Shown here in pieces: positions 58,945 to 64,000 of a DNA stretch of 64,000 nucleotides. The DNA lies in assembly GCA_016196035.1 (NCBI GenBank), contig JACPYM010000107.1:62001-126000 (forward strand), written 5' to 3'. The notes beneath the pieces were generated by a model. That model was not told where the DNA came from and searched no databases. It saw only the letters and a program-made list of their open reading frames with translations. The position numbers and the translations under genes were made by a program. Within the stretch, counting starts at the first letter, position 1. Every line of letters starts with the position of its first letter. Origin of the DNA: Acidobacteriota bacterium (GTDB lineage: Bacteria; Acidobacteriota; Blastocatellia; RBC074).

Positions 58945-59699
58945 TTACCACTGCAATAGCTTGCGCAGTCCCGGCAAATGATTGCGGCTGACGCTGACCT
59001 GATGGCCGCTGCTGAGCGTGAGTTGCGCCGTCTGGTTGTCGTAAGGATGGATTTCGCGCACGTGATTGAGGTTGACCAGCACCTGACGATGCACGCGCTG
59101 AAAGATGTGCGGGTCATGCTGCGGCTCAAGCTCAGCCAACGTCGTGAACTTCGTCCGGAACTCGCCTTCGGCCGTCGTCACGCAGACCAACCCGCGATCC
59201 ACGCGCAACGAAGTGATCTGCTCCACGCCCAGCACCAGAATGCGTTGCTGCACGCGCACCGGCAGCCGTTGCAGAGATGTCGTCACGCGCGGTGGCAACG
59301 TTTGCAGAAAGTTCGTCAATTGCGCCCGCGCCTGTTCCCACGCCGCCAATTGCCCGCGCGCCTTGCCCAGTGCCTCTGCCAGCCGCCGGCTGACCGGTTT
59401 GAGCAGGTAATCCAGCGCGCTCACCTCAAACGCATCCACCGCGTATTGATCGTGCGCCGTGGCGAAAATCACCAGCGGCAGTGCGGCAGGTTCCAACAAC
59501 CGCAACACGCCAAAGCCGTCCACATCCGGCATCTGCACATCCAACAACAACAAATCGGGCCGCAACGCCTCGACGCGCTCGACAGCCTCAGCGCCGGTTT
59601 CTGCCTCGCCGATGACCTGTACCTCCGCTGCGCGCCCAGCAGATCACGCATTCGTTGCCGCGCCAGGGGATCATCATCAACAATCAGCACTCGTATCAT
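58945..59699 (-). pseudogene. LytTR-type response regulator, split by a frameshift
   Basis: ATG at 59699 opens a receiver domain (IRVLIVDDDPLARQRMRDLL), but after GAQ the frame is lost. The rest of the gene (EVQVIGEAETGAEAVERVEA, LLLLDVQMPDVDGFG, KPV, then a LytTR DNA-binding domain with VHRQVLVNLNHVREIHPYD) continues in another frame from about 59640. A single missing base near 59640-59650 explains it. All other motifs are intact, so this is either a recent mutation or a sequencing error. The intact protein would be AlgR/LytR-like, ~250 residues. Confidence 0.85.
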
Positions 59700-59800: not shown

Positions 59801-61285
59801 CTAGGAAATGAGTTCAAGAATCTCCTGGCAATAACCTTGGGCGGTTAGCAGCACGGACTCACGCAGCTTATGTTCACGGCTGTGCATCGTCGGTGTGCGA
59901 ACTTTGGCGAGATGGGTAAAACGTTCACTCCAGTAACTCTTCTCTTTATTACCCAGCGGCTCCTCGAATAACTCCCACGCGCCGCTGATGATGACCCACA
60001 AATCCATGGGGTAAAGGTAATCCAACAAGCGTTCAGCAGCACCGTCACCAAAATTCCTACGCTCTTTTTCCCGCTTCTGCTCTGGGGCGCTTTGCGTCAG
60101 CATTGTTTCGATGGAAGGGCAGCGTTGTTTCAACGTATCTAGCCACGCAGAGCCATGCTTGCTTACACATATTTCTTCGATGTAGTCCCGCAAGGCTCTT
60201 TCGGTTTTTCCGAGCAATTCACTGGTGGAAGGATCAAGTGGAGGCTTCTCTCGCGCGCATTTCTCGAGATAATCTTGAAAATGTTGCGACCAGCCTTCGT
60301 ATCTGATCGGGTAAATTTCACGATTTTGCCTAACCAAGCCGTAGGCCAATAAACGCTCTAGCACGATATTGGATGGCTCTGACCAACGTGGGCCAACACA
60401 AAGTTCAACTAGGTGATTAAACAAATTGTCCTCAACCAGGATCTCACGCATCTGCTCATAGAAACTATAAATCTCATGATTGGCTTGCAGAATGCCTTCA
60501 CTGACGGAATTGGCGTCCCAGATATGGCAACACATCATCTCTGCTAAGAAAGGATGTCCACCAGTTCTGTCATAAACATAACTGACCGTCTCATTATTGA
60601 ATAATTCAGCCCGGCCAGCCGCACGCGCAACAATGGCTTTGACTCCGTTCAAGTCAAGTGGCTTTAAGTAGTAGAGGTGGCAAATCCCTGCAAGTGTTGA
60701 GACATCGCGAATTTGTTCCTCAATTAATTTTATTCTGCGGCGGGAAATAATTACTCCGGAGGTGCCGGTTTTGGCTTCGTTATAAATCAACTCCCTGAGT
60801 CGCTGTATGGAATCGCTAGCTTCTTTCAGATGCCGAATCTTATCAAACTCATCAAGCACGATGGTTATCTGCAAGCCTTGTTGACGTAGTTTTGACAAGC
60901 CTCGATAACATCGATGATAGGCGTGATATGAAGAGTCGTTGGGTAAAGCCAGAATGTCTTCGTTAAACCTGTTAGGTAATGGCAACCCTCGTTCACTCAG
61001 AAGGTCTACTACTGCGTCAAGAATGACGGTGAACAAATCTGCTGCCCCGGTATTAGTGGACAAACCTGCAAGATCAGGTTCGACAATCAAAATTTCAGGA
61101 TTTCTTTGACGCAAGCGGCAAAGTATCTCTGCCACTAATGAGCTTTTTCCCACGCGGTTTAATCCGACCAGCGATATATTACTCCCGCCCACGAGATGGG
61201 TAAGCATCTCTTCAATTTCATGCTCTCGCCCGACCAGTCTGTCGCCTTGAATAACTCTGCCATATGCTAAAAATGGATTATTCAT
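59801..61285 (-). CDS. P-loop NTPase (STAND/AAA-like) with C-terminal Swt1-like HEPN domain
   Basis: ATG at 61285 follows AGGGGA and gives 494 residues. The N-terminal ATPase has VGREHEIEEM, Walker A GLNRVGKSS (residues 41-49), Walker B ITIVLDEFDKI (Asp145, Glu146) and a sensor-like Arg stretch VIISRRRIKL. A winged-helix-like region follows (RLLAYGLVRQNREIYPIRYEG). The last ~125 residues form a helical domain (TERALRDYIEEICVSKHG, LYPMDLWVIISGAWELF, FTHLAKVRTPTMHSRE) with R463-x4-H468, the catalytic R-x4-H motif of HEPN ribonucleases. It is preceded 21 bp upstream by a larger NTPase gene. The pair resembles abortive-infection-type systems; targets are unknown. Confidence 0.82.
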   Translation of the reverse strand: MNNPFLAYGRVIQGDRLVGREHEIEEMLTHLVGGSNISLVGLNRVGKSSLVAEILCRLRQRNPEILIVEPDLAGLSTNTGAADLFTVILDAVVDLLSERGLPLPNRFNEDILALPNDSSYHAYHRCYRGLSKLRQQGLQITIVLDEFDKIRHLKEASDSIQRLRELIYNEAKTGTSGVIISRRRIKLIEEQIRDVSTLAGICHLYYLKPLDLNGVKAIVARAAGRAELFNNETVSYVYDRTGGHPFLAEMMCCHIWDANSVSEGILQANHEIYSFYEQMREILVEDNLFNHLVELCVGPRWSEPSNIVLERLLAYGLVRQNREIYPIRYEGWSQHFQDYLEKCAREKPPLDPSTSELLGKTERALRDYIEEICVSKHGSAWLDTLKQRCPSIETMLTQSAPEQKREKERRNFGDGAAERLLDYLYPMDLWVIISGAWELFEEPLGNKEKSYWSERFTHLAKVRTPTMHSREHKLRESVLLTAQGYCQEILELIS

Positions 61286-61306
61286 GGATTCCCCTGTGAG
61301 CTTGTG

Positions 61307-64000
61307 TTAGTAAGTCGGCGCTGAACGTAACCACTCGGCGAACAATCCGACGCGAATTTTCATGCGTCCGGCAATATCGAATTCAATAACATCACGATCA
61401 GTCATGTCCTTCAATAAAAAGTCGCGATTATCAAACACTGGTAAATCCGCCAGATTGGCACCCGTGAAGGGCGTAGAGGTGTTGGCAATAGCGGTCAGCA
61501 AACCGAGATAAGTCTCTCTATCGGCTTCAGCGACAGATTCGCCTGCTGCCGTAATCAGAGGATCGAATCTTTCAATGGGCAACCGGTCATTGCCTACCGT
61601 CAACTCGCGCGCAACGTTATTGATGTCAGCTTCAGTGATGAACGGGGCTTTCTCTTTGTTGAGGTAACGCACCAGCCGGTCACACATGATCTGAAGGTAA
61701 AAAGGACTCCCAGCCGTTAGCTCAAGTAGGCGCGGCAGCGCTTTATTTCCCCGATAACGAGTTTTTTCATCCAACAGGATAGGCTGCACGGCCAGCGAGA
61801 GTGCATCGTGTTCTGAAAGGTAGGTAATACGCTCGTCATAAGTAACCCCGAACTCATTCGCGTAAGCCTGCTTGAACTTCGTCATCGAATCCTGCCCCAC
61901 TACCACAGCACTAAAAGTGTTAAGTTGCAGCAAGGCTTTCCAGTTACGCATAAAGCCTGGCGAAACCAGCTTTTCGGTAATGTACTCAAACAGGTAGGTA
62001 AATTCATCAATCAATAACACGATGCGTGGCTCGTGCCAGCCGTTCTCTTTAAGCGTGCGTATTGTTTGCATGACCGCTTGACGGAAGGCGCGCACGGGGT
62101 CGTCATGCACCTCGCTCATTGAAGGCCAGGTTGCCAGATTAAAGCCAAGTCGGTCAACTACCTTCATTTGGAGTGAATCAAGGCAGGTTTGAATAAAGCT
62201 TCTTTCAGCCGCCTCTGTATTGATTGCTCCAACCGTTAACGAAACAGCTAGATTAGGATGAGTAATTCGCTGCTCGACCTGATGCACGACGGATGACTTA
62301 CCCGAGCGTTTTTGTCCATATAGCACAAAGCATTGGCCGACCGGACCGTGCAAAACGTATTCCTCAATCCGCTTGACCAGATCTGCGCGGCCAAAAAACA
62401 TTTCGTGCTTTTCGACTACTTTGCCACCCGCATAAATCCCATACGGATTGGCAATCGGGACGAATGAGTCAGCCAGACTAAGGCGAATCGGAATCGGGTA
62501 AACCGCGCTCCTTTCGTTCTGACCGGCGCGAGTTCGATAACGAAGTACCGTCAATAGCGTGAAAGTCTGATCTTCGACCTGGGCTCTTGAGGGTTTGATT
62601 TTAAGTTCGATTTCCCGGCGCTCCCCGCTGCGCAGCACTTCGGGTGAAACGCCAGCCTCTTCAACGCTTAAGCCGTTTTCTTCTTCCGCGATCACTTCCA
62701 GCGCTTCGATTGGCGCGCCACCAGGCTTTGAGAAGATTTCTAGCCTGACTGTCAAACAACCATCCTTGAGTAAAAAGTAATCGTCTTTCAGCAAGTTGGT
62801 CACCTCAAAATCCGGCTTCGCATTTGCTTGGAAATCCTTGAAATTCTGTTTGATCTGTTTTTCGAGATGATGGCAAATCGGGAGCAGCGATTCGACCGAG
62901 AGTTTGGTAGGGCTGGTCCTGATCTCTTCGGTGATGGTGTCAAGTTCCGTGGTGACTCGCCCAAATTTGGCCTCACGTTCAATGTAATCATTATCCTGCC
63001 AATACCTGGCGACATCAGCCATCACCCGGCTCACTGTGGTCAGTCGTAACCTGTCCAATTCAAAGCGGGTGTTTTGCGCGCACCCCGCCAAAGTTTTGGA
63101 CATGTCCTGCAACACTCCCACGCTCAGCGGCGAACCTGCCAGCGCATCCAAAGCGGATTTTTCCCGTCGGCAACGATCTTCTTCTGCGTACAGCGCTTCG
63201 TTTAGATTTGTGTATTGCTTCAGGAAATTAGCAGGCGCGCGCGATTTTGTCAGTTCAGTTGACAGAAATCGCACAGCGTCGTCGGACATTCGCCCATAAT
63301 AAGGGAAATCACGCTGAAAACGATTCCACCCGGAGGCATCACTGTCAAAACGTTTAAGTACCGTATTGAGATAAACTCTTCCTTCTTTTGAGAGTAATTC
63401 TCCGGGGGCAGGTAAGGCTGAAAGATAAGTCGCCAGCAAGTAGGTCAAATCCTGTTCATGGACTCTTGTGCTGGCCAGCGCGATGGCTTCGGCAAAATAG
63501 CAGCGCGCCGTATCGCGCGGGAAACTGTCATTCAGCGCCATTTCCCCAAGGTGCGAGAGACTAAGGCGCATATTTTCAACTACTGTGCGTTCACCCGCAG
63601 CTTCTGGGGCTTCCTGGCAAATCGCCGCAATCGTTAGACTGATTTCCGCACGTTCTTTCGGGACTCTGCCCCGCAAGGCATCGCGTTGCCGTTCAAGCCG
63701 TTGTATATCCTGTTCGTCGTAATAGCCGCGCGCTTTTGAACGATCATCCACGCGCCGGAAATCACAGGTACTAAGAAGATATTTGGTGAAAGCAGAAAAA
63801 CCGGAGGAAAAACCTATCAACTCATCGAAGTAGCTGTTTTCCGGTGTTTGATTGGGTTGAAGCCCTTGTTCACGGTATTGCTTGATCTTTTCGATAAAAG
63901 CAGTTGTCAGGGGATCAGGCGGCGCAGCGCGAAGCAAAGCCAGAGCTTCATCGAATTTACCCAAAGCGAACAAGCAGTAGGCTTGCTGGCGTATATAGTT
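61307..64000 (-). CDS. Large TPR-containing P-loop NTPase (5' end beyond the window)
   Basis: At least 897 residues are visible; the frame is open to the window edge, where QQAYCLFALGKFDEALALLR looks like a TPR motif. A long helical N-terminal region is followed by a beta-sandwich-like segment (FEVTNLLKDDYFLLKDGCLT onward). The ATPase domain has FFGRADLVKRIEEYVL, Walker A YGQKRSGKSS (about visible residue 560) and Walker B RIVLLIDEFTYLF. A C-terminal winged-helix-like part ends DVIEFDIAGRMKIRVGLFAE. It is probably a STAND-type sensor NTPase. It is in one operon with the HEPN-tailed NTPase (21-bp spacing) in an AT-richer stretch. Confidence 0.8.
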   Translation of the reverse strand, partial: NYIRQQAYCLFALGKFDEALALLRAAPPDPLTTAFIEKIKQYREQGLQPNQTPENSYFDELIGFSSGFSAFTKYLLSTCDFRRVDDRSKARGYYDEQDIQRLERQRDALRGRVPKERAEISLTIAAICQEAPEAAGERTVVENMRLSLSHLGEMALNDSFPRDTARCYFAEAIALASTRVHEQDLTYLLATYLSALPAPGELLSKEGRVYLNTVLKRFDSDASGWNRFQRDFPYYGRMSDDAVRFLSTELTKSRAPANFLKQYTNLNEALYAEEDRCRREKSALDALAGSPLSVGVLQDMSKTLAGCAQNTRFELDRLRLTTVSRVMADVARYWQDNDYIEREAKFGRVTTELDTITEEIRTSPTKLSVESLLPICHHLEKQIKQNFKDFQANAKPDFEVTNLLKDDYFLLKDGCLTVRLEIFSKPGGAPIEALEVIAEEENGLSVEEAGVSPEVLRSGERREIELKIKPSRAQVEDQTFTLLTVLRYRTRAGQNERSAVYPIPIRLSLADSFVPIANPYGIYAGGKVVEKHEMFFGRADLVKRIEEYVLHGPVGQCFVLYGQKRSGKSSVVHQVEQRITHPNLAVSLTVGAINTEAAERSFIQTCLDSLQMKVVDRLGFNLATWPSMSEVHDDPVRAFRQAVMQTIRTLKENGWHEPRIVLLIDEFTYLFEYITEKLVSPGFMRNWKALLQLNTFSAVVVGQDSMTKFKQAYANEFGVTYDERITYLSEHDALSLAVQPILLDEKTRYRGNKALPRLLELTAGSPFYLQIMCDRLVRYLNKEKAPFITEADINNVARELTVGNDRLPIERFDPLITAAGESVAEADRETYLGLLTAIANTSTPFTGANLADLPVFDNRDFLLKDMTDRDVIEFDIAGRMKIRVGLFAEWLRSAPTY

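Follow-up and report, generated by a model that had tools for sequence, protein, structure and literature searches.

What is the function of two closely spaced nucleoside triphosphatase (NTPase) genes, one of which carries a predicted ribonuclease (RNase) domain, in the genome of an Acidobacteriota bacterium? The genes, designated B and C, lie at the end of the window, that is, the whole 64,000-nucleotide stretch of DNA that was analyzed (G000:C107:62001-126000, from a 9.6 Mb genome; window position equals position in locus L015 plus 59500). Both are on the minus strand and are 21 bp apart, and a Shine-Dalgarno-like AGGGGAA precedes the second start. A sequence-only reading had described them as adjacent P-loop genes, the larger with tetratricopeptide repeats (TPRs) and an NTPase and the smaller with a Swt1-like HEPN domain, and had proposed that the larger protein is the sensor and the smaller the effector. 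Both open reading frames are present, each with a Walker A and a Walker B motif. The explanation favored here, with moderate confidence, is that B and C constitute a two-gene sensor/effector NTPase system with RNase output, which would provide defence by this general mechanism.

59801..61285, minus strand: gene C, a predicted 494-amino-acid effector NTPase with an N-terminal ATPase_2/STAND-like NTPase, a C-terminal Swt1-like HEPN domain and an ATG start (from the open reading frame and from Pfam, PADLOC and fold matches)
61307..64000, minus strand: gene B, of which the C-terminal 897 of 1493 amino acids lie in the window (TPR/helical region, beta-rich linker, NTPase); the whole gene is L015:1807-6288

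The product of gene C joins an NTPase to a HEPN domain of the Swt1 family that has an R-x4-H motif, and RNase activity is predicted for it. Residues 18-246 match the Pfam family ATPase_2 with an expectation value (E) of 1.4e-12. In an AlphaFold model with a predicted local distance difference test score (pLDDT) of 67, the fold of residues 16-346 resembles the archaeal ATPase_2 proteins 2qen and 2fna, the origin recognition complex (ORC)/Cdc6 proteins, the nucleotide-binding leucine-rich repeat receptors (NLRs) and RdrA. The HEPN_Swt1 family (PF18731) matches C at 2.5e-5, scoring 25.0 bits against a cut-off of 27.5, or 28 bits with its frame neighbors, and the PADLOC profile PDC-M34B matches the HEPN stretch at 1.2e-8. 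In orthologues of C, HEPN_Swt1 clears the Pfam cut-off at 1.2e-9 and 1.7e-8. Together with the invariance of the catalytic arginine and histidine in 8 homologues, these matches bear out the Swt1-like HEPN domain and the R463-x4-H468 motif of the sequence-only reading. Both Walker motifs are intact in gene C and in its five closest orthologues. Membership in the MADS system, as mad8, was rejected; the matches were partial and at the level of the P-loop only, and the MADS genes are absent from the operon.

61142..61165, minus strand: Walker A motif of gene C, residues 41-48 (GLNRVGKS); G41, G46 and K47 are invariant among relatives
60848..60868, minus strand: Walker B motif of gene C, residues 140-146 (..VLDE); D145/E146 are invariant in ten C-type relatives, and the five HEPN orthologues nearest to C retain them
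60794..60796, minus strand: R164 of gene C, a candidate arginine finger; invariant or nearly so across C-type NTPases
59819..60202, minus strand: HEPN domain of gene C, residues 362-489, from the PF18731 and PDC-M34B matches, with orthologues above the Pfam cut-off
59882..59899, minus strand: HEPN catalytic motif R463-T-P-T-M-H468; R463, H468 and R470 are the same in all 8 HEPN homologues, and the consensus is RNPxAH

As read from its sequence, gene B encodes a large protein of 1493 amino acids with a small barrel at its N-terminus, TPRs, a cold-shock-like domain of the oligonucleotide/oligosaccharide-binding (OB) fold and, at its C-terminus, a P-loop NTPase; domain matches support the TPRs and NTPase of the original description. 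The cold-shock-like domain lies outside the window at about residues 388-460, as placed with aligned orthologues. Pfam recognizes it in two of these (2.3e-7 in L241 and 6.4e-6 in L239), and a profile of the aligned B orthologues matches solved cold-shock proteins in the PDB at 3e-6. Residues 1 to about 65, also outside the window, form a helix and a small five-strand barrel in a low-confidence model, and this barrel could be Sm-like. A fold search with residues 1-480 returned mainly TPR proteins, every one at E above 0.01. In the B proteins of the HEPN clade, N-W-K stands at roughly the position matching R164 of C, and an arginine finger of B was not placed.

61310..62446, minus strand: NTPase domain of gene B, residues about 1115-1493, from sub-threshold ATPase_2/AAA_16/nSTAND1 matches and a 60-pair tree
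62291..62317, minus strand: Walker A motif of gene B, residues 1158-1166 (GQKRSGKSS); core residues are invariant in 5 orthologues
62003..62017, minus strand: Walker B motif of gene B, residues 1258-1262 (LLIDE); invariant in 5 orthologues

The B-C pair is co-inherited as a unit across three phyla, the Acidobacteriota, Chloroflexota and Cyanobacteria. All counts given here are lower bounds because the searches covered samples of genomes. Within its own class, a full match was found in 1 of 162 genomes, this genome alone, and genomes of the same genus and family were without it. A profile search of the Anaerolineae recovered the HEPN form in 6 of 288 genomes, namely Anaerolineales H5_CFX7 (L141) and five more that encode NTPase-HEPN proteins of about 500 amino acids. 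At four loci (L239, L240, L241 and L243), the upstream gene is a full-length B orthologue with 28-30% identity over about 1500 amino acids, and the C orthologues are about 32% identical to gene C. Genomes with orthologous pairs are G577, G655, G658 and G703, as well as G980, in which B is cut by the contig end. The NTPase-HEPN protein of L242 (G588) is partnered by an NTPase with helix-turn-helix (HTH), cold-shock (1.2e-15) and TPR domains. Some 1.3 kb upstream of this pair is a CRISPR array with about 48 copies of a 37-nt repeat (GTTGCAGTGCCCACGATCCGACTGAGGATACTGAAAG; L242:1-4056). In Anaerolineales H5_CFX7 (L141:3585-9005), a B protein with three S1 domains (1.8e-51) ahead of its NTPase is followed by an nSTAND2-NTPase-HEPN gene, which is frameshifted. 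Among 194 cyanobacterial genomes, one possesses a C orthologue (L265, G980 contig C8), and the C-terminal end of B stands directly before it. Its contig, which appears plasmid-like and Pseudanabaena-like, encodes a PemK/MazF toxin, a ParA-like protein, an unassigned large ATP-binding protein and a relaxase that shares 79% identity with one from a Pseudanabaena plasmid.

The co-occurrence survey proposed in the sequence-only reading has yielded a pair conserved in Chloroflexota and one cyanobacterium, with a mobile or defence context at some loci. That reading had named beforehand three outcomes that would count against it, the absence of a HEPN match, the absence of conserved pairing and a housekeeping neighborhood; each was checked, and none of them refuted it. 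Searches of other collections were negative. Exact peptide patterns did not find close homologues of C in genome and viral contigs, and tblastn found no relatives of B and C in plasmids, nor of C in phages. The orthologues at L239 and L265, when used as queries, likewise found no full relative in plasmids. A contig scan with C-type NTPases, through which the L141 locus was reached, used one Walker A pattern that is missing from gene C itself, and it under-samples close relatives.

The pairing of two NTPases, which had been considered unusual, proved not to be so, because pairs of a sensor NTPase and an effector NTPase are widespread and co-inherited. A B-type NTPase lies within 200 bp in 38 of the 72 loci fetched by the C-type NTPase alone, in the order B-C in 28 cases and C-B in 10, and a two-gene STAND operon had been predicted in 2021 (PMC8195603). 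The outputs on the 38 C-type partners include kinase (6), LuxR HTH (4), TIR (3) and SIR2 (1) domains, none being recognized at threshold on the rest, and the sensor domains of the B-type proteins include TPRs (12), PD40 (5) and Reg_prop (3) as well as WD40 and S1. Moreover, the patristic distances of B and C correlate at 0.853 over 59 pairs, and none of 2000 permutations rose above 0.166. In a quick NTPase tree, the B and C types form separate, mirrored subclades, a separation that is partly by construction because the labels were set by profile scores; the distance correlation is less exposed to this. In the same quick tree, gene B and gene C group with their Anaerolineae counterparts from the HEPN pairs (support 100 and 98, respectively), whereas the HEPN-bearing partner of L141 falls among the kinase-type C proteins; the HEPN output was therefore probably gained at least twice on the two-NTPase chassis.

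Other members of this theme were seen in passing. Many B-type NTPases of Acidobacteriota with propeller, TPR or HEAT sensors adjoin a C-type NTPase, often an nSTAND2-Ser/Thr kinase fusion. At L110, L071, L107, L111, L114 and others, sensor NTPases with propeller/CarboxypepD_reg or TPR domains are paired with nSTAND2-kinase proteins; these widespread pairs apparently make up a signalling family not described before. A C-type NTPase fused to a SIR2-like domain adjoins a B-type NTPase on an Anaerolineae contig (L121:822-2687), which is possibly an NAD-depleting form of the chassis. On the Acinetobacter ursingii plasmid NZ_MH220285.1 (L257:3014-10779), an HsdR-like gene is followed first by a fusion of a type I methylase-specificity protein with a B-type NTPase and then by a C-type NTPase of 520 amino acids, in whose helical-looking C-terminus no domain was identified; here a two-NTPase pair would be incorporated in a restriction system resembling type I. 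The genome studied here (G000) itself contains a second pair at L115 (G000:C28:3304-6605), in the order C then B with a 4 bp overlap, and no effector domain was recognized in it.

How might B and C act together? The variable N-terminal part of B holds binding modules, so B would be the sensor. RNA-binding folds (cold-shock and S1) recur alongside the HEPN output, which suggests that the trigger is RNA or something linked to it. B may recognize such a signal of infection or stress, for example aberrant or foreign RNA, through its cold-shock domain and N-terminal barrel, and its TPRs may bind a protein ligand. Once the trigger is bound, the ORC/STAND-type NTPases of B and C, the latter with its candidate arginine finger, would co-assemble in an NTP-dependent manner. 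This would bring the HEPN domains of C together as active dimers, which would cleave cellular or viral RNA, and growth or phage replication would stop. The division into sensor and effector that had been proposed earlier is supported by the orthologous pairs and by the co-inheritance of B and C. A role in defence is favored because of the patchy spread over three phyla, the low GC content, the plasmid and CRISPR contexts, and the TIR and SIR2 domains in sister pairs. The PDC-S60-like NACHT gene next to B and the relaxase and PemK/MazF genes around the cyanobacterial pair likewise speak for a mobile or defence setting. Given its recurrence in three phyla, the pair is probably a rare, mobile, abortive-infection (suicide-type) defence system. 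More tentatively, and with rather less confidence, B-C may exemplify a general prokaryotic two-protein transducer in which sensor and effector NTPases co-assemble, with inputs (cold-shock, S1, TPR, propeller) and outputs (HEPN, TIR, SIR2, kinase, LuxR HTH) freely exchangeable. The form described here would then be RNA-triggered RNase immunity, with RNA sensing and cutting split over two co-inherited NTPases.

Several observations weigh against a defence system of this kind. The architecture of B-C is well supported, and we infer from it the sensor/effector roles and the co-assembly. With pLDDT of 67 and 54, the AlphaFold models are of middling quality. The model of C is helical over the HEPN domain with modest pLDDT, no HEPN structure is among the fold matches, and alignment of the HEPN domain with PDB sequences gave no meaningful match; the missing HEPN row in the fold searches is no evidence against HEPN identity. 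In B, the cold-shock segment alone scores E 0.069 and is without the usual His, and the N-terminal barrel is without any Pfam match, Sm included. In addition, T464 of C stands directly after the catalytic Arg where the consensus has Asn. This substitution would fit a HEPN domain that has lost catalysis and acts in RNA binding or as an adaptor, as inferred for eukaryotic Swt1, but R463 and H468 are invariant in all 8 homologues from three phyla, and loss of catalysis is very improbable.

The remaining points concern context. Some HEPN loci are without defence neighbors, for example L243, which adjoins uvrC, and among the sister pairs with a recognized output, most combine a protein-kinase or LuxR domain with a membrane or propeller sensor. 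Because kinase and LuxR outputs occur, the two-NTPase chassis also serves ordinary signalling. B-C itself could belong to stress-response signalling, with the sensor NTPase reading cellular RNA or the translation state and the HEPN RNase tuning host RNA levels. The sister pairs with kinase (6 of 38) or LuxR HTH (4 of 38) outputs agree with such a role, as do the many B-type proteins with propellers or TPRs typical of signal transduction. However, the HEPN form is patchy and skips lineages, its composition is unlike that of the host, plasmid and CRISPR contexts occur, and TIR and SIR2 outputs are found among the sister pairs; signalling as the function of B-C is thus unlikely, although it deserves consideration. 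The plasmid-like site in the cyanobacterium, the tight gene spacing and the combination of an RNase with a larger partner also recall toxin-antitoxin systems. C would then be an RNase toxin kept inactive by B and freed when B is lost or engaged, mainly for maintenance of a mobile element. This is improbable, since B is a 1500-amino-acid multi-domain NTPase unlike an antitoxin and the same chassis is used by pairs with non-toxic outputs. A sensor/effector defence system remains the preferred explanation.

B and C lie in an island together with a third gene. The sequence past 64000 places the start of gene B at the window-equivalent position 65788, and a further gene, A, lies upstream on the same strand and ends 35 bp from B; this extension had been suggested in the sequence-only reading. 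A-B-C is a probable three-gene operon on the minus strand, of which B and C are the last two genes. The region is richer in AT than its neighbors, as originally noted: GC content is 46.9% in C, 50.0% in B and 56.5% in A versus 57-60% in the flanks, and GC at third codon positions is 0.48, 0.51 and 0.61, respectively, versus 0.75-0.77. This lower-GC island separates the gene for a LytS-type histidine kinase from that for a LytTR response regulator. Such genes normally adjoin each other, and the LytS/LytR pair looks broken on either side of the island, through either decay or an assembly error. Repeats at the island edges were limited to matches of 7-8 bp, with no target-site duplication found, and a promoter/terminator scan of the locus did not beat shuffles.

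58945..59699, minus strand: LytTR response-regulator gene, the downstream boundary, outside the module; frameshift near 59625-59640
L015:9552-10941: LytS-type histidine kinase gene on the far side of the island; in-frame TAG, and N-terminus fused to a truncated ATP-binding cassette (ABC) ATPase

Gene A encodes a DUF4062-NACHT-HEAT protein of 1002 amino acids, which matches the PADLOC candidate PDC-S60 at 1e-37; tblastn with A in plasmids retrieved general NACHT proteins only. Its position in the same island and on the same strand, its distance from B and its PDC-S60 match raise the possibility that the true unit is A-B-C, in which the NACHT protein senses and B-C is the amplifier or effector. 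No homologue of A was found beside the six Chloroflexota loci or the cyanobacterial locus, however, and the GC content of A is more host-like than that of B and C. The three-gene unit is consequently rather doubtful, and A more probably shares the operon in this genome without being a core part of the B-C module.

Kaur et al. (2021) had already predicted two-gene STAND systems that use HEPN effectors, and no experimental test of such predicted systems was found in the literature examined. New here are the two intact NTPases, the RNA-binding/TPR sensor arm and the co-inheritance across phyla. The orthologous HEPN pairs supply several related pairs with which two-gene STAND systems could be tested, and the cold-shock, S1 and TPR arms point to one particular class of trigger, RNA. 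Co-inherited NTPases with outputs from kinases to TIR and SIR2 would allow one to ask how a paired NTPase switch passes its signal, and the two-NTPase chassis would link ordinary bacterial signalling with cell-suicide defence.

Kaur, Iyer, Burroughs and Aravind (2021; PMC8195603, Figure 6C) predicted the closest known counterpart, a mobile operon in which two genes each encode an nSTAND2 NTPase. Co-assembly was proposed for it, and the effector, most commonly GT4 or HEPN, resides on the partner with eroded NTP motifs; an arginine finger conserved in both partners also belongs to that system. Both systems consist of two adjacent genes that each encode a STAND-type NTPase, with a HEPN effector on one of them (gene C here). 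By description, they differ in that the effector-bearing C keeps Walker A and B, so that the motifs of both partners are intact. Moreover, C and B are without an nSTAND2 (PF20702) match up to E 1, whereas the L141 HEPN partner matches at 9.4e-7; C and B would thus be divergent relatives of nSTAND2 at most. HEPN domains of the Abi2/Swt1 family have also been described in fusion with STAND-ATPase, TPR and S1 domains, as in Npun_F6454, MED222_16016 and Desac_1927 (Anantharaman et al., 2013; PMC3710099, Table 1). These proteins share with B-C the Swt1-type HEPN, the STAND NTPase, the TPRs and an RNA-binding OB fold, but as described they are fusions, while B-C splits the domain set over two proteins with two NTPases. 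The nSTAND2-Ser/Thr-kinase pairs of Acidobacteriota (L110, and L070, likewise with a kinase) resemble B-C in their B-type then C-type order on the same strand and their intact P-loops, and differ in their kinase output and in their propeller, CarboxypepD_reg or TPR sensors, some with a likely membrane helix. RdrA of RADAR, NLR resistosomes and ORC/Cdc6 show a distant likeness in fold to the NTPase of C (Z about 8-10, superfamily level), but are without HEPN and have other partner proteins. Finally, PrrC/RloC and the HEPN-AAA proteins (DUF499, Ava_2192) are NTPase-linked HEPN RNases in defence operons (PMC3710099), as is proposed for C. Unlike B-C, they carry an ABC or DUF499 ATPase in one chain, without a second NTPase bearing an RNA-binding/TPR sensor.

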